A stretch of DNA of 13,769 nt from Treponema sp. GTDB lineage: Bacteria > Spirochaetota > Spirochaetia > Treponematales > Treponemataceae. The notes beneath the pieces are model-generated. The model saw only the letters and a list, made by a program, of their open reading frames with translations. It made no database searches and was not told the DNA's origin. The stretch is from positions 1-13,769 of the forward strand of contig JAFLSP010000013.1 in assembly GCA_022510885.1 (NCBI GenBank), read 5' to 3'. A program made the position numbers and the translations under genes. Below are positions 426-9,491 of the stretch, piece by piece (within the stretch, counting starts at the first letter, position 1; each line of letters begins with the position of its first letter).

Positions 426-454
426 TTGACAAAGCAGAGAAATGTGCGTATCAT
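426..454 (+). promoter_or_regulatory. Sigma70-type promoter of the importer/nifDK unit
   Basis: A perfect -35 box TTGACA (426-431) and a -10 box TATCAT (449-454) are 17 nt apart. The start of transcription would be near 461, giving a leader of about 48 nt before the first binding-protein gene. The palindrome arrays lie 135 nt or more upstream of the -35 box. Confidence 0.8.
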
Positions 455-508: not shown

Positions 509-1315
509 ATGAAAAAGACGACAAAAATTCTGGCCGCGGCGATTGCCGCAGTAGTGGTGGGGCTGCCCGCGTTCGCGGCGAAGAAAACGGATAAAGTCAA
601 GACGATTTACGTCGGCGTGACGGTGGACAGCAAGTACGGCTACCTTGACGACAAGGGCAACTACGTGGGCTACGAGGCGGAACTGCTGCGCGCGGTTGAC
701 GAGGCGCTGCCGCAGTATGAGTTCAAGTACGAGTTCGGGAAACTGGACGCCATTCTGCTCGGGCTTTCGACGGGGAAGTATGAAATCGGGCTGAAGCAGT
801 TCGAGTCGAACCCTGACCGGCGCAAGAACTACCTCTTCTCGGAGGACGGCTATCTGTGCTATGACTCGTACCTCACCGTGCTGAAGGAGAACAACGACAT
901 CCATTCGTTCGACGACCTGCGCGGAAAGCCGGTGCTCGGCAGTTCACATGGCTCTGCCTTCGCCACGTACCTGGAGAACTACAACAAGTCGCTGCCGGCG
1001 GGAGCGACAAAAATCAACATCGTGTATGCGTCGTATGCATCGCACGAGGAGACGCTCGCCGCGCTGCGCAACGGGACGATTGTCGCGACGACGATGCCGA
1101 AGTCGATTATCCGCGACTACAACAAGCAGTTCGGCGACGTGGTAAAGGCTGCGGAGAAGGAGCCGCACCGCAAGAGCGATGCCTACGTGCTGTTCAACAA
1201 GAAGCAGACTCAGCTCAAAAAGGACTTTGACGCGGCGTTGCACGAACTGATTGTCTCGGGCAAGCTGAGCGAGATTTCTCAGCGCACCCTCGGCTACGAC
1301 TACAAGGACAACTAA
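509..1315 (+). CDS. Periplasmic amino-acid-type solute-binding protein 1
   Basis: This 268-residue protein looks like the binding component of a polar amino acid (PAAT-type) ABC importer, capturing substrate in the periplasm for the permeases encoded downstream. It has an N-terminal signal peptide (MKKTTK, a hydrophobic stretch to about residue 20, AFA before the likely signal peptidase I cut near residue 23). There is no lipobox Cys. The motif NPDRRKNYLF (101-110) sits where family members carry the Arg that grips the substrate carboxylate. DDLRGK (135-140) opens the second-lobe phosphate-loop-like segment. GGAGG at 498-502 supports the ATG at 509. The substrate cannot be read from sequence. 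It is the first gene of the unit, 12 nt before a close paralogue. Confidence 0.85.
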   Translation: MKKTTKILAAAIAAVVVGLPAFAAKKTDKVKTIYVGVTVDSKYGYLDDKGNYVGYEAELLRAVDEALPQYEFKYEFGKLDAILLGLSTGKYEIGLKQFESNPDRRKNYLFSEDGYLCYDSYLTVLKENNDIHSFDDLRGKPVLGSSHGSAFATYLENYNKSLPAGATKINIVYASYASHEETLAALRNGTIVATTMPKSIIRDYNKQFGDVVKAAEKEPHRKSDAYVLFNKKQTQLKKDFDAALHELIVSGKLSEISQRTLGYDYKDN

Positions 1316-1327
1316 CGGAGGTATCGG

Positions 1328-2134
1328 ATGAAAAAGACGACGAAGGTTTTGGTCGCGGCGGCTGCCGCAGTGCTGGCGGGGTCACTCGCGTTTGCGGCAA
1401 AGAAAACGGACAAGGTAAAGACGGTGTACGTCGGCGTTGCCATCGACACGAAGTACGGCTACCTTGACGACAAGGGCAACTATGCGGGCTATGAGGCGGA
1501 GATGCTGCGCGCGATTGACGAGGCGCTGCCGCAGTATGAGTTCAAGTACGAGTACTCGGACTTGGGCGGCATCCTGCTCGCGCTCTCGCAGGGCAAGTAC
1601 GACATCGGGCTGAAGCAGTACGAGTCGAACCCGGAGCGGCGCAAGAACTACCTCTTCTCGGAGGACGGCTACCTGTGCTACGACGTGTACTTCACCGTGC
1701 TGAAGGAGCGCAACGACGTGCATTCGCTTGCCGACCTGCCCGGAAAGACGGTGTACGGCGGCTCCACGGTGGGCGCGGCGACGGGAACGGGGCTTGAGAA
1801 CTATAACAAGACGCTTCCGGCCGGCTCCCCCAAAATCAACGTCGTGTATACGAAGCAGACGAAGGAAGAGACGCTCGCCAAGCTGCGCAACGGGAGCCTC
1901 GACGTGACGATAACCACGCAGTCGGAACTGCGCGACTACAACACGCAGTACGGCGACGTGCTCAAGCACGTGGAGAACAAGCCGTTCAACAAGAGCGATG
2001 CCTACGTGCTGTTCAACAAGAAGCAGACACAGCTCAAAAAGGACTTCGACGCGGCACTGCATGAGCTGGTCACTTCCGGCAAGCTTTCCGAGATTGCGAA
2101 GCGCACGTTGGGGTACGACTACACGGAGAACTGA
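1328..2134 (+). CDS. Periplasmic amino-acid-type solute-binding protein 2
   Basis: This is a tandem paralogue of the preceding gene. It is also 268 residues long, aligns without gaps and is roughly two thirds identical by eye. Signal peptide, the first-lobe NPERRKNYLF motif and a long identical block near residues 222-247 are retained. The differences cluster in the binding-cleft region: residues 140-156 read KTVYGGSTVGAATGTG here and KPVLGSSHGSAFATYL in copy 1, and residues 172-180 also differ. The expectation (inference) is that the two proteins offer different ligands to one permease pair. The ribosome binding site CGGAGGT precedes ATG 1328 and is nearly the same as that of copy 1, so the duplicated segment included the leader. 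An intrinsic terminator follows. Confidence 0.85.
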   Translation: MKKTTKVLVAAAAAVLAGSLAFAAKKTDKVKTVYVGVAIDTKYGYLDDKGNYAGYEAEMLRAIDEALPQYEFKYEYSDLGGILLALSQGKYDIGLKQYESNPERRKNYLFSEDGYLCYDVYFTVLKERNDVHSLADLPGKTVYGGSTVGAATGTGLENYNKTLPAGSPKINVVYTKQTKEETLAKLRNGSLDVTITTQSELRDYNTQYGDVLKHVENKPFNKSDAYVLFNKKQTQLKKDFDAALHELVTSGKLSEIAKRTLGYDYTEN

Positions 2135-2143
2135 CGGAAGTCC

Positions 2144-2186
2144 GTCGCCGGGACGACTGGTTTCGTTCCGGCGACGTTTTTGTTTT
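2144..2186 (+). terminator. Intrinsic terminator inside the importer unit
   Basis: A 13-bp stem (2144-2156 with 2163-2175, one G-T pair) and a 6-nt loop CTGGTT are followed by a T-rich tail at 2177-2186. It lies between the second binding-protein gene and the first permease gene. No new promoter is evident before 2203, so partial read-through is likely, giving more binding protein than membrane or reductase components. Confidence 0.8.
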
Positions 2187-2202
2187 ATTGCAAGGAAACT
2201 CA

Positions 2203-2910
2203 ATGGCAGAATATTTTTCATGGGAACGCTTCTTCGGGAATATCCCGAAGATTCTTCCGTATCTTCCGCTCACGTTGCAGATTGTCGCGGTGTCGTTCGT
2301 GCTGGGGCTGCTGCTCGCGCTCCTCATCGCCTGTGTGTCCATCAGGAAGATACCCGTGCTCTCGCAGATTCTGCGGGTGTTCATTTCGTTTGAGCGCGGT
2401 ACGCCGATGCTGGTGCAGATGCTCGTGGTCTACTACGCGCTGCCGATGCTCATCGAGGGACTCTTTGACGTTGACACGCGCGGGTGGGGGAAGGTCGTCT
2501 TCGTTGAGATTGCGCTCATCCTGAACGAGGGCGCGTTCCAGTCGGAGACGTTCCGCGGGGCAATCCTCGCCATTCCGCGCGGGCAGACCGAGGCGGCGCT
2601 GGCGTGCGGGCTGACGAATTTCCAGGCGTTCACGCGCATCGTGCTGCCGCAGACGGTGCGGCTCGTCATCCCGCCGGTCGGGGTGAACCTCATCGGCCTG
2701 TTCAAGAGCACCTCGCTCGTGTCGATGGTGGGCGTGGTGGATATGATTGGCTACGCGAAGGCACTGGGCAACACGAGCGGACACACGCTGGAAAGTTACG
2801 TGTTTCTCGCGCTCGTGTTCATCGTCATCAATATCGTGCTTTCGACGGTGTTTTGGCAGCTTGACCGCAGAGTTTCGGCGGAGCGGAAGCATCCCAAGGA
2901 GGCGGCGTGA
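2203..2910 (+). CDS. Amino-acid-type ABC transporter permease 1
   Basis: This is an inner-membrane permease of the PAAT/HisMQ family, 235 residues, with several hydrophobic helices (about 21-45, 55-85, 97-110, 155-180 and 196-218). The ABC-coupling EAA loop is clear around residues 130-150 (EAALACGLTNFQAF, then RIVLPQ). Earlier, ERGTPMLVQ (64-72) is the family's usual RGTP motif. ATG 2203 is chosen because AAGGAA lies 5 nt upstream; an in-frame TTG at 2188 has no usable ribosome binding site. It overlaps permease 2 (TGATG), so the two are translationally coupled and probably form a heterodimer. The transported molecule is unknown; amino acids or related zwitterions are typical of the family. 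Confidence 0.88.
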   Translation: MAEYFSWERFFGNIPKILPYLPLTLQIVAVSFVLGLLLALLIACVSIRKIPVLSQILRVFISFERGTPMLVQMLVVYYALPMLIEGLFDVDTRGWGKVVFVEIALILNEGAFQSETFRGAILAIPRGQTEAALACGLTNFQAFTRIVLPQTVRLVIPPVGVNLIGLFKSTSLVSMVGVVDMIGYAKALGNTSGHTLESYVFLALVFIVINIVLSTVFWQLDRRVSAERKHPKEAA

Positions 2911-3587
2911 TGTTCAATCTGGAGTATTTTTGGGACAGTCTGCGCTACGGCATCACCTATTTTCCCGTAACGCTTCAACTTGCGTTCGTTCCGCTGGGGC
3001 TTTCGATTGTCTTCGGCACGGCAATTGCGCTGGTGCGCCTGTACCGCGTGCCGGTGCTTGCGAAAATCTTTGACCTGCTCGTGCCGTTCTACAACGGCAT
3101 TCCCGTCATCGTGACGCTGCTCATTTATCACCTCGTCTACCTGACGATGATGAAGCCCATTCCGAACGGGACGATGGCGGTCGCGCTGTTCACGTTCTCG
3201 CTGGAGCGCATCTGCATCACCACGGAGACGGTGCGCGGCGCGTTCCAGGCGATTCCGCGCGGGCAGTACGAGTCCGCCTACGCCTGCGGGCTTTCCGGCT
3301 GGCAGACGCTGCGCAGGATTGTCATCCCGCAGGTCATCCCGGTCGCGCTGCCGGGCTTCACGAACGGCGTGGCGGGCGCGCTGAAGAACACGTCAATCGT
3401 CATCACGCTCGGCATAAACGACGTGCTCAATGGCGCGCTCATCCCGGGGAACGAGACCTACAGTTTCCTTGAGGGCTACGTGGCGGCGGCGGTCATCTAC
3501 TGGGTGTTCTGCTCGCTGCTCGAATTCATGCTGCACAAGGTGGAGCGCGCGCTCACCAAAAACAGGAACGGGGGAAAGAAGAAATGA
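2910..3587 (+). CDS. Amino-acid-type ABC transporter permease 2
   Basis: Second permease of the importer, 225 residues, same family as its neighbour but clearly diverged. Its EAA loop is at about 121-141 ([14 protein letters not shown], then RIVIPQ). The RGTP motif of permease 1 is replaced by YNGIPVIV (61-68). Transmembrane segments are visible near 20-45, 55-80, 88-100, 145-168 and 186-207. AAGGAGG (2896-2902) lies 7 nt before ATG 2910, which is preferred over the in-frame GTG at 2907. The C-terminus is very basic. It overlaps the ATPase gene by ATGA at 3584-3587. Confidence 0.88.
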
Positions 3588-4336
3588 TAACGATAGAGAA
3601 CGTGAAAAAATCGTTCGGGCACCTGCGGGTGCTGAACGACGTGTCGCTCACGGTGAACGACGGCGACGTGGTGGTCATCCTGGGGCCGAGCGGCAGCGGG
3701 AAGACGACGTTCCTGCGCACCATCAACTTTTTGGAGCGGGCGGACGCGGGCAGGCTGACGATTGGCGACAAGACGGTCGATTTGCACGGCGCGAAGAAGA
3801 AGGACGTGCTCGACATCAGGCGCAGGACGGCGATGGTCTTCCAGAGCTACAACCTGTTCGCCAACAAGACCGCCCTGGAGAACATCATGGAGGGGCTGGT
3901 CACGGCGAAGGGCTGGACGAAGGCGGCGGCGCGCGAGCGCGCGCTTGAGGAGCTGCGCAAGGTGGGGCTCGCGGAGAAGGCGGACTACTATCCGTCCGAG
4001 CTGAGCGGCGGGCAGCAGCAGCGCATCGGCATCGCGCGGGCGGTCGCGCTCGACGCGGACGTGATTCTGTTCGACGAGCCGACGAGCGCGCTCGACCCGG
4101 AGCTGGTGGGCGAGACGCTTCAGCTGATGAAGGCGGTGGCGCGCGAGGGCAGGACGATGATTGTGGTGACGCACGAGATGTCGTTTGCCGAGGAGGTCGC
4201 CGACAAGGTGGTCTTCATGGCGGGCGGCTACGTGGTGGAGGAGGGCACGCCGCGCGAGATTTTCACGCACCCCAGGGAGGAGCGCACGAGGCAGTTCCTC
4301 AAGCGCATCCTGCCGCAGTCGGACTACAGCATCTGA
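3584..4336 (+). CDS. Amino-acid-type ABC transporter ATPase
   Basis: This cytoplasmic ATPase (250 residues, usual length for GlnQ/HisP-type proteins) powers the importer. Walker A is GPSGSGKT (34-41), the Q-loop Gln is 87 (MVFQSYNLF), the signature is LSGGQQQR (140-147), Walker B is VILFDEP (160-166), the D-loop ALD is 169-171 and the switch His is 197 (VVTHEM). All catalytic residues are present. Its start overlaps the end of permease 2. It is followed after only 27 nt by the nifD-like gene with no terminator between, so importer and reductase very probably share a transcript. Confidence 0.93.
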
Positions 4337-4363
4337 AAAAAAGAGGAGCATACAGAGGTAACC

Positions 4364-5827
4364 ATGGACAGACAGATTGCGGACACTATCCGCGACAAGC
4401 ACCCGGGCTTCTCCGACGCGCAGGTGGGGCCTGCGGCGGAGATTCAGGACAAGGCGAGGCGGCACTGCCTCAAGACGGCGCACCGCACCTTCGAGCAGGG
4501 CATCCAGTGCGTGCAGGTGAACAGCATGAACGCGCTCATCAGCCTGCGCGACACGGTGATGATTATCCACGCGCCGCTGGGCTGCTCGGGCTGCGCGGCG
4601 GTGGGCGCGCTCGACCGGCTCGCCGTCTACAAGCACCACCGCGGCATCGACGGCGGCGCGGACAACCTCATCTCGTCCGCGCTGGGCGAGAAAGAGGTCA
4701 TCCTGGGCGGCGAGAGGCGGCTTGCCGAGACGATTGACACGGCAATCGAGCGGCACAACCCGAAAATCGTGTTCGTGCTTGCGAGCTGCGCGTCGGCAAT
4801 CATCGGGGACGACATCGACGCGGTGGCGGCGGAAAGCGAGCGCAAGTACCGGGAGCGCGGCATCATCATCGCGCCCGTGCACTGCGAGGGCTTCAAGTCG
4901 CGCAACCACGCGACGGGCTACGACCTCGCGCTCGCCACCTTGCAGAACTACGTCATCCGCGACGCGCGGCCGGAGAAGCAGAAAGGGCTCATCAACCTGT
5001 TCGCGACGCACTCGCTGAGCTACGCCGACCAGACGGAGATGAAGCGGATGCTGCGGGCAATCGGGCTGGAGGCGAACATCCTGCCGTACCACGCGACCTA
5101 CGAGGACATCATGAAAATCCCTGCGGCGGAGTACAGCATCTCGGTCTGCCAGATTTTCGGCGACGAGTACCTTGCCTTCCTCAAGGAGAAGTACGGCATT
5201 CCCTACGCGAAGACCTGCATGCCCATCGGCACGCGCAGCGTGGAGCGGTGGCTGCGCGCCATTGCCGAGCTGACGGGCAGGCAGCAGGAGGCGGAGGCGT
5301 TCATCGCGGCGGAGAAGGCGGCGGTGGAGGAGGAAATCGCCGCCATCAGGAAGAAGACGGCGGGGCTGAAGGTCTGCATCACGGCGGGCACGGGGCGCGG
5401 CTTTGCGGCGGCGACGATTGCGGGCGAGTTCGGCATGAGGCTCCTGTGCATCCACACGCCGTACTACGAGGACGCGTACTATCCCGAATTCGAGCTGATA
5501 GAGGAGCTGCACGGCTCCGACTTTTTGATTAACGTTGCCGACATGCAGCCCTACGAGCAGACGAACCTGCTGCTCAAGTACAAGCCCGACCTGTTCATCG
5601 GCATGGCGAACTGGGCGTCGCGGCTCGGCATCCCGACCATGCACATCCTTGACGCGAAGCGGCCGACCTTCGGCTTCCGCGGCGTGCTGTACCTCGGGCG
5701 GAAAATCGAGGACGCGCTGGACAACAACAACTTCAACAGGAAGCTCGCCCCGCACACGTACCTGCCGTTCCGCAGCGCGTGGCTCAAGGACGACCCCTTC
5801 AAATTCATCGAATTCCCCAGGGACTGA
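4364..5827 (+). CDS. NifD-like alpha subunit of a nitrogenase-like reductase
   Basis: This 487-residue protein aligns by eye with nitrogenase component I alpha subunits. Likely P-cluster cysteines are C49, C74 (HAPLGC) and C142 (LASC), matching Azotobacter NifD C62, C88 and C154. The CEGF motif is at 174-177. The two protein ligands of FeMo-cofactor are both matched: C262 (SVCQIFGDEY, then KYGIP; NifD C275) and H427 (GIPTMH, then FGFRG; NifD H442). Positions matching Gln191 and His195 read His182 and Tyr186, and the homocitrate-contacting Lys426 appears to be absent. This argues for a complex cluster without homocitrate and a substrate other than N2. An extra C77 makes a CSGC motif with C74. 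AGAGG lies 5 nt before the ATG. Methylthio-alkane reductase MarD is a possible relative; the true substrate is unknown. Confidence 0.88.
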   Translation: MDRQIADTIRDKHPGFSDAQVGPAAEIQDKARRHCLKTAHRTFEQGIQCVQVNSMNALISLRDTVMIIHAPLGCSGCAAVGALDRLAVYKHHRGIDGGADNLISSALGEKEVILGGERRLAETIDTAIERHNPKIVFVLASCASAIIGDDIDAVAAESERKYRERGIIIAPVHCEGFKSRNHATGYDLALATLQNYVIRDARPEKQKGLINLFATHSLSYADQTEMKRMLRAIGLEANILPYHATYEDIMKIPAAEYSISVCQIFGDEYLAFLKEKYGIPYAKTCMPIGTRSVERWLRAIAELTGRQQEAEAFIAAEKAAVEEEIAAIRKKTAGLKVCITAGTGRGFAAATIAGEFGMRLLCIHTPYYEDAYYPEFELIEELHGSDFLINVADMQPYEQTNLLLKYKPDLFIGMANWASRLGIPTMHILDAKRPTFGFRGVLYLGRKIEDALDNNNFNRKLAPHTYLPFRSAWLKDDPFKFIEFPRD

Positions 5828-5842
5828 CGGAGGACACGAATC

Positions 5843-7129
5843 ATGGAATCATGCATAGAACGACCGCGGAATTTCTGCTCGCTGCACGGCGCGCTCGACG
5901 TGGTGGGCAACATCTGGCGGGCAATCCCGATTCTGCACGCAAGCCCGGGCTGCTCCATGCAGGCATCGCAGCGGACGAACCTGTACTATCTCGGCGGCTA
6001 CCACGGGCTTCCCAGCTCGAACGCCTACGAGAAGGAGGTCGTCTTTGGCGGCGTGAAGCGGCTGGAGGAGACGGTGCGCGGCAGCCTTGAGGTGATGGAG
6101 GGCGACGTGTACGCCGTGCTGACGGGCTGCTCCATGGGCATCAACGGCGACAACGTGGAGGCCGCGCTTGAGCCGTTCGCGGACAGCGAGCTGCCGATTG
6201 TCTCGGTCGATACGGCGGGCTTCCGCGGCGACACGTACACGGGCTACCAGATGGCGATGCTCGCGCTGCTCAAGGGCGTGGCGAAGAAGGAGCGGACGAT
6301 TCCGAACCTCGTCAACCTGTACGGACAGCCGCCGAGCACCGACACGACGTTCCGCGGCGATTTGGAGGAAATCACGCGGCTGCTCGCGCGCATCGGCGTG
6401 AAGGTCAACACCTTCTTCATCCGCAGGGACGGCGTGGCGCAGCTCAAGGACGCGGGAAACGCCGCGCTGAACGTCAACATTTCCCCCTGGCTCGGCAAGA
6501 ACATCGACGCGCTGCTCAAGGCGAGTTTCGGCATCGAGACGCTCACGCTGAGCGGCTGGCCGGTCGGGCCGGAGGACACGGCGGCGTTCCTGCGCGAGGT
6601 CGCCCGCAGGCTCAACGCGCGGGAGCCTGGCACGGTGGACGAGACGCTGCTGGGGCAGGTCGTCGCCGAGGAGGAGCAGTACGTGTACGAGTACCTCGAC
6701 TCGCTGATGGGCACCTTCGAGCGTCACCGCTTCGTGCTGGTCGGGGAGAGCGCGAAGACGCTGGGGCTTGCGCGCTTCCTGGTGAACGTGCACGGGCACA
6801 TCCCGCTCGCGCTCGTCTTTACGGACACCGTGCCGCAGGCCCTGCGCGCGCCGATTGCGGACGAGGTGCGGCGGCTGGAGTGCGGGCGCAAGGCGGACGC
6901 ATACTTCGAGACGGACTCGTATGAAATCGCGCGGATTGTGCGCAAGTACGGCGACGGCGACGCGACCTTGCTCATCGGCAGTTCCTACGAGAAGCCGGTC
7001 GCGGGCGAAATCGGCGCGTTCTTTGTGAGCGCGACCAACCCGAACCTGAGCGGGAAAATCTTGAACAAGGCGCACGTCGGGACGCGCGGGTGCATCACGT
7101 TCATCGAGGACATGTACAACCACTATTGA
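5843..7129 (+). CDS. NifK-like beta subunit of a nitrogenase-like reductase
   Basis: This 428-residue partner of the NifD-like protein would form the component I heterotetramer. It keeps three P-cluster-type cysteines: C12 (RNFCSLHG), C37 (ASPGC, 25 residues on, the same spacing as Azotobacter NifK C70-C95) and C96 (VLTGCSMGINGDN; NifK C153). It therefore should bridge an 8-iron P-cluster with the alpha subunit, unlike the 4Fe clusters of BchNB or CfbD-type enzymes. It lacks the roughly 50-residue N-terminal extension of molybdenum NifK and is about 90 residues shorter. ACGGAGG lies 9 nt before ATG 5843 and overlaps the nifD-like stop. It is the last gene of the unit and is followed by a strong terminator. 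Confidence 0.88.
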   Translation: MESCIERPRNFCSLHGALDVVGNIWRAIPILHASPGCSMQASQRTNLYYLGGYHGLPSSNAYEKEVVFGGVKRLEETVRGSLEVMEGDVYAVLTGCSMGINGDNVEAALEPFADSELPIVSVDTAGFRGDTYTGYQMAMLALLKGVAKKERTIPNLVNLYGQPPSTDTTFRGDLEEITRLLARIGVKVNTFFIRRDGVAQLKDAGNAALNVNISPWLGKNIDALLKASFGIETLTLSGWPVGPEDTAAFLREVARRLNAREPGTVDETLLGQVVAEEEQYVYEYLDSLMGTFERHRFVLVGESAKTLGLARFLVNVHGHIPLALVFTDTVPQALRAPIADEVRRLECGRKADAYFETDSYEIARIVRKYGDGDATLLIGSSYEKPVAGEIGAFFVSATNPNLSGKILNKAHVGTRGCITFIEDMYNHY

Positions 7130-7143
7130 TGGCGCTTGCGCAC

Positions 7144-7175
7144 AAAAAAAGGGCTTCCTTTGGGAAGCCCTTTTT
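7144..7175. terminator. Bidirectional terminator between nifK-like and nifH-like genes
   Basis: GGGCTTCC (7151-7158), loop TTTG and GGAAGCCC (7163-7170) form a perfect 8-bp stem. It has seven A before it and five T after it, so it can end transcripts from both convergent genes. Confidence 0.93.
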
Positions 7176-7190
7176 CGTCATGCCGAAAGG

Positions 7191-8051
<861 letters not shown>

Positions 8052-8057
8052 TTAAAA

Positions 8058-8074
8058 CCTATGATTGTAATAGG
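8058..8074. promoter_or_regulatory. Candidate operator CCTAT-N7-ATAGG at nifH
   Basis: CCTATGATTGTAATAGG has perfect 5-bp arms and lies directly downstream of the predicted nifH start of transcription, between it and the ribosome binding site. It shares arms and spacing with the site at 468-484. A looser form, CTA-N8-TAG at 8180-8193, sits at the predicted nifB start but its spacing is one base shorter, so it is not counted. Confidence 0.5.
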
Positions 8075-8081
8075 TAATATA

Positions 8082-8110
8082 AAAATATGTCATTGCGCGC
8101 GTATTGTCAA
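8082..8110 (-). promoter_or_regulatory. Sigma70-type promoter of nifH-like gene
   Basis: On the minus strand, TTGACA (8110-8105) and TATTTT (8087-8082) are 17 nt apart, and an AT-rich start region follows. The leader to ATG 8039 would be about 36 nt and contains the palindrome at 8058-8074. No sigma54 (-24/-12) pattern was seen. Confidence 0.65.
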
Positions 8111-8148
8111 GGGGGTTTGTGAAAAGTTTTTGGCACGGCGTGCGGGTC

Positions 8149-8177
8149 TTGACAGGGATGGTAATCGCTTGTAGATT
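8149..8177 (+). promoter_or_regulatory. Sigma70-type promoter of the nifB-nifX unit
   Basis: TTGACA (8149-8154) and TAGATT (8172-8177) are 17 nt apart. Transcription would start near 8184, about 30 nt before the nifB-like start. It is divergent from the nifH promoter. Confidence 0.6.
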
Positions 8178-8215
8178 ATCTATAGCGAATTAGTGGGAAA
8201 AGGGGGTTGTCGGCA

Positions 8216-9082
8216 GTGGACTATGAGACTATCAGCCGCGAGCATCCGTGTTTCGGACCGCACAAGCATAACAAGGGCAGGATGCATCTTCCCGTCGCGC
8301 CGGGCTGCAACATTGAGTGCCGGTTCTGCGACCGAAAGATACACGAGAGCGAAGAGCGGCCGGGCGTGACGCGCGCCGTCATCACGCCGCAGGAAGCCTG
8401 CGCCTATGTCCGCCGCGCGCTTGAGCGTGTTCCCGAACTGACGGTGGTGGGCATCGCGGGACCGGGCGACACGCTCGCCACGCCCTACGCGCTTGAGGCG
8501 TTCCGCTTGATAAAAGAGGAATTCCCGCAGCTTATTCGCTGTATGAGCACCAACGGCCTGCTCCTGCCCGAAAAAGCCGACGAGCTGATTGCGGTCGGCA
8601 TCGACACGCTGACGGTCACGGTGAATGCGGTTGACCCGGAGATTGAGGCGCGGCTGAACAAGGGCATCACCTACCACGGCAGGCGGTACGAGGGCGTGGA
8701 GGCGGCGGACATTCTTATCCGCAACCAGCTGGAGGGCATCGCGCGCGTGGCGGATTCGGGAATGCTTGTCAAGGTGAACACCGTGCTCTGTCCCGGCATC
8801 AACGACGCGCATATCGAGGAAATCGCCTGTGCGGTCAAGGACGCGGGGGCGCATCTCTACAATATTATCCCCCTCATCCCGCAGCACGAGTTGGCGCATC
8901 TCAATGCCCCCACGTTCTGGGAACTTGACGCGGCGCGGCAGGCGGCATATCCGTACATCAACATTTTCACGCACTGCGCGCGGTGCCGGGCGGACGCGGT
9001 GGGCGTGCCGGGCGAGTACGACATCGGCGGCGAGATTTACGCGGGGCGCGCGCCGGCAGAGGAGACGTTTTCGCATGGCTGA
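8216..9082 (+). CDS. nifB-like: NifB-like radical SAM enzyme (NifB-co synthase)
   Basis: This 288-residue protein matches NifB throughout. NifB fuses two Fe4S4 clusters and inserts a SAM-derived carbide to build the 8Fe NifB-co core. HPCF (10-13) gives an N-terminal cluster ligand, CNIECRFC (31-38) is the CX3CX2C radical SAM motif, and GIAGPGD, STNGL, VTVNAVDPEI and HCARCRADAVG (253-263) follow in the NifB order. The C-terminal NifX domain of many bacterial NifB proteins is missing; a separate NifX-like gene overlaps its end. GTG 8216 is preferred because AGGGGG (8201-8206) lies 9 nt upstream; TTG at 8207 directly abuts that site. Its presence implies that the NifDK-like complex carries a large carbide-type cluster. 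Confidence 0.92.
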   Translation: MDYETISREHPCFGPHKHNKGRMHLPVAPGCNIECRFCDRKIHESEERPGVTRAVITPQEACAYVRRALERVPELTVVGIAGPGDTLATPYALEAFRLIKEEFPQLIRCMSTNGLLLPEKADELIAVGIDTLTVTVNAVDPEIEARLNKGITYHGRRYEGVEAADILIRNQLEGIARVADSGMLVKVNTVLCPGINDAHIEEIACAVKDAGAHLYNIIPLIPQHELAHLNAPTFWELDAARQAAYPYINIFTHCARCRADAVGVPGEYDIGGEIYAGRAPAEETFSHG

Positions 9083-9491
9083 GTACAGAATCGCGGTCGC
9101 CACGAGCGACGGGAAGACCGTGGACACGCATTTCGGGCACGCGCGTTCATTCGTCATCTTCGCGGTGGACGAGGACAGCGGCGCGTTCCGGGACATTGAG
9201 GAACGCGCCATCGACACGGCGGGATGCGCGGGCGGCGAGTGCGGTGGCGCGGGCTGCGGCGGCAGGAACGGCGCGGGTGCCGGGCAGAACGTGATGGACG
9301 CGATTGCCGAGCGGCTTGACGGCGTTTCCTACGTGCTTGTCGCGCGCATCGGCCCGCACGCTATCCGCGCGCTTGCGCGGCGCGGCATCACCGCCTATGA
9401 CATTGTGTTGCCGATTGACGCGGCAATTGCGAAAATCAACGAATTCAGAAAGCGGAACCTGGCGCGAAGGCGGTCGTCCAAAACGGTCTGA
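9075..9491 (+). CDS. NifX/NafY-family cofactor-binding protein with Cys/Gly-rich loop
   Basis: This 138-residue protein has the dinitrogenase iron-molybdenum cofactor fold (NifX, NafY, C-terminus of NifB). Family members carry or store NifB-co and related clusters. It starts RIAVATSDGK and has THFGHARSF (18-26), the family's conserved His region; IGPHAIRAL (92-100) matches the usual second half. An insertion at 48-70, very rich in Gly, holds C51, C56 and C61 as CX4CX4C. This could bind metal or a cluster (inference). The C-terminal tail is basic (KRNLARRRSSK). It overlaps the nifB-like stop by 8 nt, so the pair acts like a split NifB-NifX. A weak GGAG lies 10 nt before the ATG. Confidence 0.82.
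   Translation: MAEYRIAVATSDGKTVDTHFGHARSFVIFAVDEDSGAFRDIEERAIDTAGCAGGECGGAGCGGRNGAGAGQNVMDAIAERLDGVSYVLVARIGPHAIRALARRGITAYDIVLPIDAAIAKINEFRKRNLARRRSSKTV

Follow-up and report, generated by a model that had tools for sequence, protein, structure and literature searches.

The 13,769-nucleotide stretch of Treponema sp. DNA analyzed here (the window) carries genes for an ABC importer followed directly by genes for the two subunits, D and K, of a nitrogenase-like reductase, with nifH-, nifB-, and nifX-like genes beyond them. On balance, and with odds only a little better than even, we favor a role for this set in anaerobic organosulfur salvage, in which an S-substituted cysteine or similar compound would be imported and its C-S bond cleaved by ATP-driven reduction. 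Four lines of evidence lead us to this view: an importer gene adjoins D in 17 of 19 related loci, an arrangement kept despite differing importers; the importer's binding proteins are closest to TcyK, and sulfur genes are enriched near D genes; D and K retain P-cluster and cofactor cysteines and are accompanied by a NifB core, the closest fold being that of MarD, a C-S reductase; and the assembly has no match to NIR_SIR or cysteine synthase but does hold a MetB/C-type gene beside a PatB-like open reading frame (ORF). The assembly, in which the window is contig C35, amounts to 2.0 Mb in 336 contigs and is estimated as 88% complete. Genes were called from ORFs and Pfam matches, with further scoring against NCBIfam cut-offs. 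The features are as follows.

426..454, plus strand: sigma-70-like promoter of the importer-DK unit, assigned by consensus (TTGACA-17-TATCAT, 11/12 consensus matches)
509..1315, plus strand: substrate-binding protein 1, TcyJ/TcyK-like (SBP_bac_3, 67 bits)
1328..2134, plus strand: substrate-binding protein 2, TcyK-like (SBP_bac_3, 74 bits)
2143..2176, plus strand: terminator-like hairpin within the importer (14-pair stem followed by TTTTTGTTTT; -27.4 kcal/mol, z -5.1)
2188..2910, plus strand: permease A (BPD_transp_1)
2907..3587, plus strand: permease B (BPD_transp_1)
3584..4336, plus strand: importer ATPase, TcyN-like (ABC_tran, 114 bits)
4364..5827, plus strand: NifD-like catalytic subunit D (Oxidored_nitro, 261 bits)
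5843..7129, plus strand: NifK-like subunit K (Oxidored_nitro, 195 bits)
7146..7175, either strand: bidirectional terminator-like hairpin between the convergent K and H genes (-20.9 kcal/mol, z -4.3)
7191..8039, minus strand: NifH-like reductase (Fer4_NifH, 427 bits)
8207..9082, plus strand: NifB core, a radical SAM protein without a NifX domain (TTG start uncertain)
9075..9491, plus strand: stand-alone NifX-like cluster carrier of the NifX/FeMo-co type (Nitro_FeMo-Co, 57 bits)

A preliminary reading of this DNA, made from the letters alone (the sequence-only reading), had proposed that the nifD-like gene starts 27 nt past the ATPase stop with no terminator between, and this is confirmed: the ORFs place the D start codon at that distance behind an AGAGG ribosome site, and the consensus scan listed no terminator-like site in the gap. 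K follows D after 15 nt. The same reading had nifK, nifH, nifB, and nifX homologues following within 5 kb; all four are real genes, but nifH lies on the minus strand, and nifB and nifX, on the plus strand, fall outside the importer transcript. Among the nitrogenase-like genes, only D and K could plausibly share that transcript, because H converges on K from beyond the hairpin at 7146-7175, and B and X diverge from H. This hairpin reads as a terminator in both directions and was not listed by the consensus scan. The strong terminator-like hairpin at 2143-2176, after the second binding protein, lies inside the importer, and the permeases, D, and K would therefore depend on limited read-through. 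Single promoter or terminator sites are weak evidence here, since the scan as a whole gave 8 sigma-70-like sites where 2.7 would be expected, and 11 terminator-like sites where the expectation was 12.6.

Linkage of the importer to D was surveyed in 20 loci of D clade A from Treponema and Clostridia, drawn from a genome scan, of which 19, all but L020, include the beginning of the D gene. In 17 of these 19, D is preceded on its own strand by a PAAT-type ATPase gene at a distance of 14-193 nt, although only the end of the ATPase gene is on the contig at L004 and L018 and it reads in two pieces at L021. Treponema bryantii B25 (L011), a cultured carrier, has an ortholog of D at 73%, with the ATPase gene 65 nt before it. 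The conservation that the sequence-only reading proposed to look for thus extends over Treponema and Clostridia, and adjacency recurring in 17 of 19 related loci is not a matter of chance. Many of the genomes are close relatives. Relatives without the importer, which that reading would have counted against itself, come down to one of the 19 (L017, with none adjacent), the importer at L003 being downstream of K instead. The type of importer varies, being TcyK-type in most Treponema and another PAAT type in Clostridia, whereas a second clade A copy (L075, 68%) is preceded by NMT1-type importer genes. More broadly, D-type matches at E <= 0.001 occur in 124 of 274 genomes of the family, a count that pools all paralogue clades and includes some weak matches. 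They are rare in the class of a Lachnospiraceae carrier, where a match at E <= 1e-100 was seen in 4 of 391 drawn genomes, including two already known as carriers. The nearest relatives of the window D are proteins from Treponema records, many of them sampled from rumen or gut.

Both subunits fall short of the Nif models. D scored 169 bits against TIGR01862 (cut-off 486) and 156 against nifD (654); K scored 71 bits against vnfK, its best model (874), and 45 against nifK (427). A FastTree phylogeny was built from a seeded sample in which 46 of the 306 D sequences were joined by 12 K sequences, with a single reference each for NifD and NifE; the alignment took in no D ORF shorter than 420 aa and no protein shorter than 470 aa, and L018 and L021 were not candidates for the sample. 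NifD and NifE split off together with support 1.0, and the window D also stands outside the MarD clade. From these comparisons, D belongs to a group IV lineage separate from NifD, NifE, and Mar, which upholds the earlier suggestion of a distinct nitrogenase-like system outside true NifDK. Several such D proteins are named "nitrogen fixation protein NifE" in public records, which is likely over-annotation. A NifEN-type scaffold role for DK was considered in light of these names and rejected, because a search of the 88%-complete assembly turned up no NifDK client.

The closest solved sequence and the closest fold to D are those of MarD (9d9u/9fmg), and the closest solved sequence to K is MarK (9d9u_C, 233 bits). 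MarBHDK of Rhodospirillum rubrum also resembles the window in its B-H-D-K set, NifB-type B, and P-cluster and cofactor cysteines. With MarDK as the nearest solved relative, the window could encode an ordinary methylthio-alkane reductase for volatile thioethers such as dimethyl sulfide. We consider this improbable, given that the window D is about 30% identical to MarD (27-32% to Mar homologues, best 120 of 900), lies outside Mar in the tree, lacks the Arg428-His429 loop described below, and is joined to a TcyK-type importer, which would not be expected for volatile substrates.

The residues that would hold the metal clusters set D apart further. D has the P-cluster cysteines Cys49, Cys74, and Cys142 (present in 306/306 aligned sequences) and the cofactor cysteine Cys262, equivalent to MarD Cys270 and kept in all 306 but one, which is gapped there; in K, compared for the window protein, P-cluster-type Cys12, Cys37, and Cys96 align to cysteines of MarK. 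P-cluster and cofactor cysteines of NifDK are thus found in D and K. In MarD, the [Fe8S9C] cluster is bound through His429 of loop I, adjacent to Arg428 (PMC12552129). This Arg-His loop occurs in 120/120 Mar and 24/25 clade C sequences (the exception is L065) but in 0/52 clade A and 0/105 clade B sequences (0/157 together). Instead, 156 of these 157 have a strict histidine motif in the loop of NifD His442, and the odd one, L007, keeps the histidine with Asp in place of the downstream Gly. Additional clade B proteins, among the matches listed, agree (motif 107/107, Arg-His loop 0/107).

In the window D, this histidine is His427, followed by Lys432-Arg433. From His427 on, the stretch MHILDAKRPTFGFRGVLYL aligns without gaps to MHSWDYSGPYHGYDGFAIF of Sinorhizobium NifD (MHSW..., the histidine of which we take to be His442), with 6 of 19 residues identical. 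His427 is thus probably in register with NifD His442 and a putative cofactor ligand, the register being probable rather than proven because the gap of two residues in the automatic alignment falls on the opposite side of His427. Asn181, His182, Tyr186, Lys432, and Arg433 are invariant in clade A (44/44 distinct sequences); clade B keeps Lys-Arg in 105/105, with Cys at position 182 in 89/105, and clade C has Trp at position 182 in 22/23 distinct sequences, as in MarD. The window D likewise differs from MarD in having His182 and Tyr186 in place of Trp195 and Phe199. Since the sequences are related by descent, such counts describe clades and not independent events.

A NifD-like histidine position, together with the NifB core, the NifX-like protein, and a NifH above the nifH cut-off, would also suit an N2-fixing group IV nitrogenase, as reported for Endomicrobium proavitum, which is diazotrophic without NifEN (PMC9147875, PMC8399215, PMC11257099). 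By published description, NfaHDK of E. proavitum and Paenibacillus riograndensis is of group IV-A; NifEN is lacking in E. proavitum, whose Nfa reportedly retains the N2-reduction ligands (PMC9147875). Against this reading, NifD Val70, Gln191, and His195, called essential for N2 reduction (PMC12552129), fall on Ala57, His182, and Tyr186 of the window D, counted along the alignment. The 44 distinct clade A sequences have Ala in 40, Thr in 2, and Val in 2 at the first position, with His and Tyr in all 44 at the others. The sulfur-gene and importer context and the failure to find NifEN in the assembly argue in the same direction, and we regard N2 fixation as quite unlikely.

Several related loci combine more than one reductase. 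In Lachnospiraceae, L012 (397-10757) and L016 (158-9170) each hold a Mar-type D'K' with the Arg-His loop and a window-type DK in one array. The order at L012 is B-X-H-D'K'-X-importer-DK, with a single H in the locus and two cofactor-ligand classes side by side. Four Treponema loci (L053-L056) carry B-X-H-CysK-D'K' (clade C), a TcyK-type importer, MATE, X-DK (clade B), and an SsuA-like binding protein. On a Chlorohelix plasmid (L082, 1-16746), two nitrogenase-like cassettes lie on either side of an O-acetylhomoserine sulfhydrylase and an ABC importer, and the first D there lacks both the Arg-His loop and the NifD-type His motif. L065 (3234-4748) encodes a deep-branching D-type protein without the Arg-His loop or the loop II His motif, adjoining K and a CysK-type gene. 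One clade B D-type protein (P0334) is listed with an extra periplasmic-binding domain, PF01497, which may be a fusion, a mis-joined gene, or an odd annotation.

In B. subtilis, we take tcyJ and tcyK to encode binding proteins and tcyL and tcyM permeases. Two binding proteins, two permeases, and an ATPase in the window fit the B. subtilis genes tcyJKLMN (named in PMC11487621) in number and order. Among solved chains, binding protein 1 best matches Lmo2349 (4gvo, 103 bits) and YtmK (2o1m, 101 bits), the next scoring 56, and binding protein 2 matches the same two at 114 bits each, the next scoring 57; for both, no other chain reaches more than about half of these scores. We take YtmK to be TcyK of B. 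subtilis and Lmo2349 to be TcyK of Listeria. The ligands of Listeria TcyK are cystine and cysteine (PMC9239247). The best NCBIfam model for the ATPase is TcyN (307 bits, cut-off 406). Permease A best matches the equivalogs EhuC (127 bits) and cystine permease (123), both under cut-off, and passes the general domain TIGR01726 (61 versus 42); permease B best matches cystine permease (117 bits, under cut-off). No Tcy model exceeded its own cut-off for any importer component in the NCBIfam scan. By these best matches, the importer looks TcyJKLMN-like, i.e., of the cystine/cysteine type; the sequence-only reading was right that an amino acid importer is present, but generic PAAT was too broad a label.

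An importer of the cystine type, beside an enzyme whose L- and P-clusters need much sulfide, could simply feed cystine or cysteine sulfur into the enzyme's own Fe-S clusters while the reductase substrate enters by another route. This seems unlikely to us: the importer is joined to DK rather than to nifB, related DK genes adjoin NMT1- or SsuA-like importer genes, and the neighborhoods of relatives contain assimilation genes. Other binding proteins near related DK genes differ in type. SBP21 is closest among solved chains to 4c0r/4eq9, presumably glutathione-binding GshT types, and SBP14 to 1xt8/2yjp, presumably cysteine-binding; for SBP32 of Clostridia, Lmo2349 is best by an unclear margin (63 versus 57 bits).

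Gene neighborhoods were compared between 29 Treponema-family stretches chosen for D (494 kb, 28 genomes; clades A to C all included) and a background of 40 stretches that two of these genomes supplied (800 kb), a design biased in that the query clusters were themselves drawn from D loci. TcyK-like binding proteins (11/29 versus 0/40), PAAT ATPases at >=45% identity (20/29 versus 2/40), and permeases of two clusters (15/29 and 10/29, each versus 0/40) were more frequent near D, as were SsuA-like and NMT1-like binding proteins (11/29 versus 0/40 each), SBP21 (4/29 versus 0/40), and SBP14 (7/29 versus 1/40). So were CysK-type (11/29), MetB/C-type (7/29), PatB (5/29), LysR (12/29), CymR-like Rrf2 (4/29), MATE (13/29), radical SAM TIGR04100 (10/29), and NifH and NifB genes (5/29 each), all against 0/40. 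Enrichment was not significant for M20 (3/29 versus 0/40, P 0.07), HisC (2/29 versus 0/40, P 0.17), or MetQ (3/29 versus 1/40, P 0.2).

When one representative per named cluster was scanned against NCBIfam, cut-offs were passed by PatB (430 versus 340 bits), TIGR04038 (a radical SAM protein), and general superfamily models, and by no others. The Rrf2 protein has CymR as its best model, under cut-off (98 versus 195 bits). A CysB-like identity for the neighboring LysR protein was rejected in favor of the plain label LysR, because other LysR models rank above CysB (CidR 90 bits, CysB family 61, all under cut-off). Published work also places group IV-A nitrogenase-like genes in or near sulfur-linked mlp clusters (PMC10418091) and group IV nifDK of a termite spirochete in an operon with cysteine synthase (PMC13067680). 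The sulfur-containing substrate suggested by the sequence-only reading gains from the sulfur metabolism around relatives' D genes, whereas the step from importer ligand to reductase substrate stays at the level of conjecture.

NifH exceeds the nifH cut-off (459 versus 394 bits), has Cys98 and Cys133, and is the single full-length match of its family in the assembly, beside three short weak ones. B is, by sequence comparison, a true NifB core, with 286 bits to solved NifB (7jma) and 282 bits to TIGR01290 over positions 10-293 of 441 (cut-off 344). NifEN was not found in the assembly, where D and K are the only PF00148 matches. Neither NIR_SIR sulfite reductase (found in 11/14 control genomes) nor cysKM cysteine synthase (14/14 controls, 11 over cut-off) was found there; weaker PALP matches reach 67 bits at best. 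One strong gene of pyridoxal-phosphate Cys/Met metabolism (MetB/C-type, 438 bits) is present and adjoins an ORF that resembles PatB by eye. At 88% completeness these absences are suggestive, and they would point to a usable thiol, not sulfite, as the product.

Among nitrogenase-like enzymes, C-S cleavage is known for Mar and, on genetic evidence, for Isr (PMC11423573). The isethionate reductase IsrBHDK of Rhodobacter capsulatus works with the importer SsuCAB in a sulfur locus (PMC11423573), so that the pairing of such an enzyme with an importer is not new; the sequence-only reading, which named no nitrogenase-like enzyme defined by a linked PAAT importer, needs changing to that extent. An Isr-type sulfonate reductase releasing sulfite would also account for SsuA-like binding proteins near related DK genes. 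We nevertheless consider it very unlikely for the window, since D has three P-cluster cysteines against one in IsrD, B is a NifB core whereas IsrB is not NifB-like, the Isr importer is of the sulfonate type (PMC11423573), and the assembly yielded no sulfite reductase that could use sulfite.

For the favored salvage pathway, we propose that the TcyJKLMN-like importer would take up a cysteine-type sulfur compound, likeliest an S-substituted cysteine or another thioether or disulfide amino acid. NifB would build an [Fe8S9C] L-cluster, which the NifX-like protein may carry and insert straight into DK, NifEN not having been found, and which Cys262 and His427 may hold there. NifH would deliver ATP-driven electrons via the P-cluster, and DK would reductively cleave the C-S bond; the thiol set free, be it cysteine, sulfide, or some small thiol, would then be assimilated. 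The B. subtilis locus tcyJKLMN-cmoOIJ shares the importer layout and the logic of sulfur salvage, but O2-dependent flavin enzymes cleave the C-S bond there. CmoO and CmoJ use O2 to remove the alkyl group from S-alkylcysteine (PMC10863075), and YxeK breaks down 2-succinocysteine with O2 (PMC9706529); a reductive, O2-free enzyme might serve strict anaerobes in their place.

Several points weigh against this pathway. TcyK-type proteins bind plain cystine and cysteine, for which a nitrogenase-like reductase would seem unneeded, and an O2-independent 2-succinocysteine lyase exists, providing another anaerobic route for at least one such compound (PMC9706529). L017 has no adjacent importer gene; no CysK, PatB, or LysR gene lies beside the window's own genes; and MetQ and M20 are not significantly enriched near D. 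His427 as a ligand depends on sequence register and clade pattern, and the gene absences, from an 88%-complete assembly, are suggestive.

A more specific and tentative extension, which we think could well prove wrong, is that the window represents a new class of nitrogenase-like enzyme for an imported amino acid: an O2-free S-substituted-cysteine C-S reductase with a NifD-type Cys/His-bound L-cluster, independent of NifEN, with Lys-Arg as a carboxylate clamp, and found as several enzymes with different importers in gut Treponema and Clostridia. No report was found of a lineage in which a NifD-like His replaces the Mar loop beside a recurrent cystine-type importer, a novelty limited to the literature searched because bioRxiv and most subscription journals lay outside the search. 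For many nitrogenase-like enzymes of group IV, no substrate is known; gene order here suggests one, and the importer's binding proteins offer an in vitro test in a lineage with predicted cofactor ligation unlike that of Mar. If true, nitrogenase chemistry would extend to amino acid sulfur salvage in rumen and gut anaerobes, NifB-type clusters would serve more C-S cleavages than Mar, and these proteins would serve as natural scaffolds that have a NifD-like ligand set and do without NifEN.

Upstream of the promoter, positions 128-294 are a mosaic of the tandem palindromes CGGAGAG..CTCTCCG and CCGTTAA-N5-TTAACGG. Of the 5 copies of the latter in the assembly, 3 lie in this segment at 27-bp spacing; we rejected an operator role because the other two sites lie in similar repeat mosaics by genes with no evident relation, and the motif is thus a dispersed intergenic repeat. 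Beyond NifX, the window continues with genes judged by eye to be ArgC- and Mpl-like.

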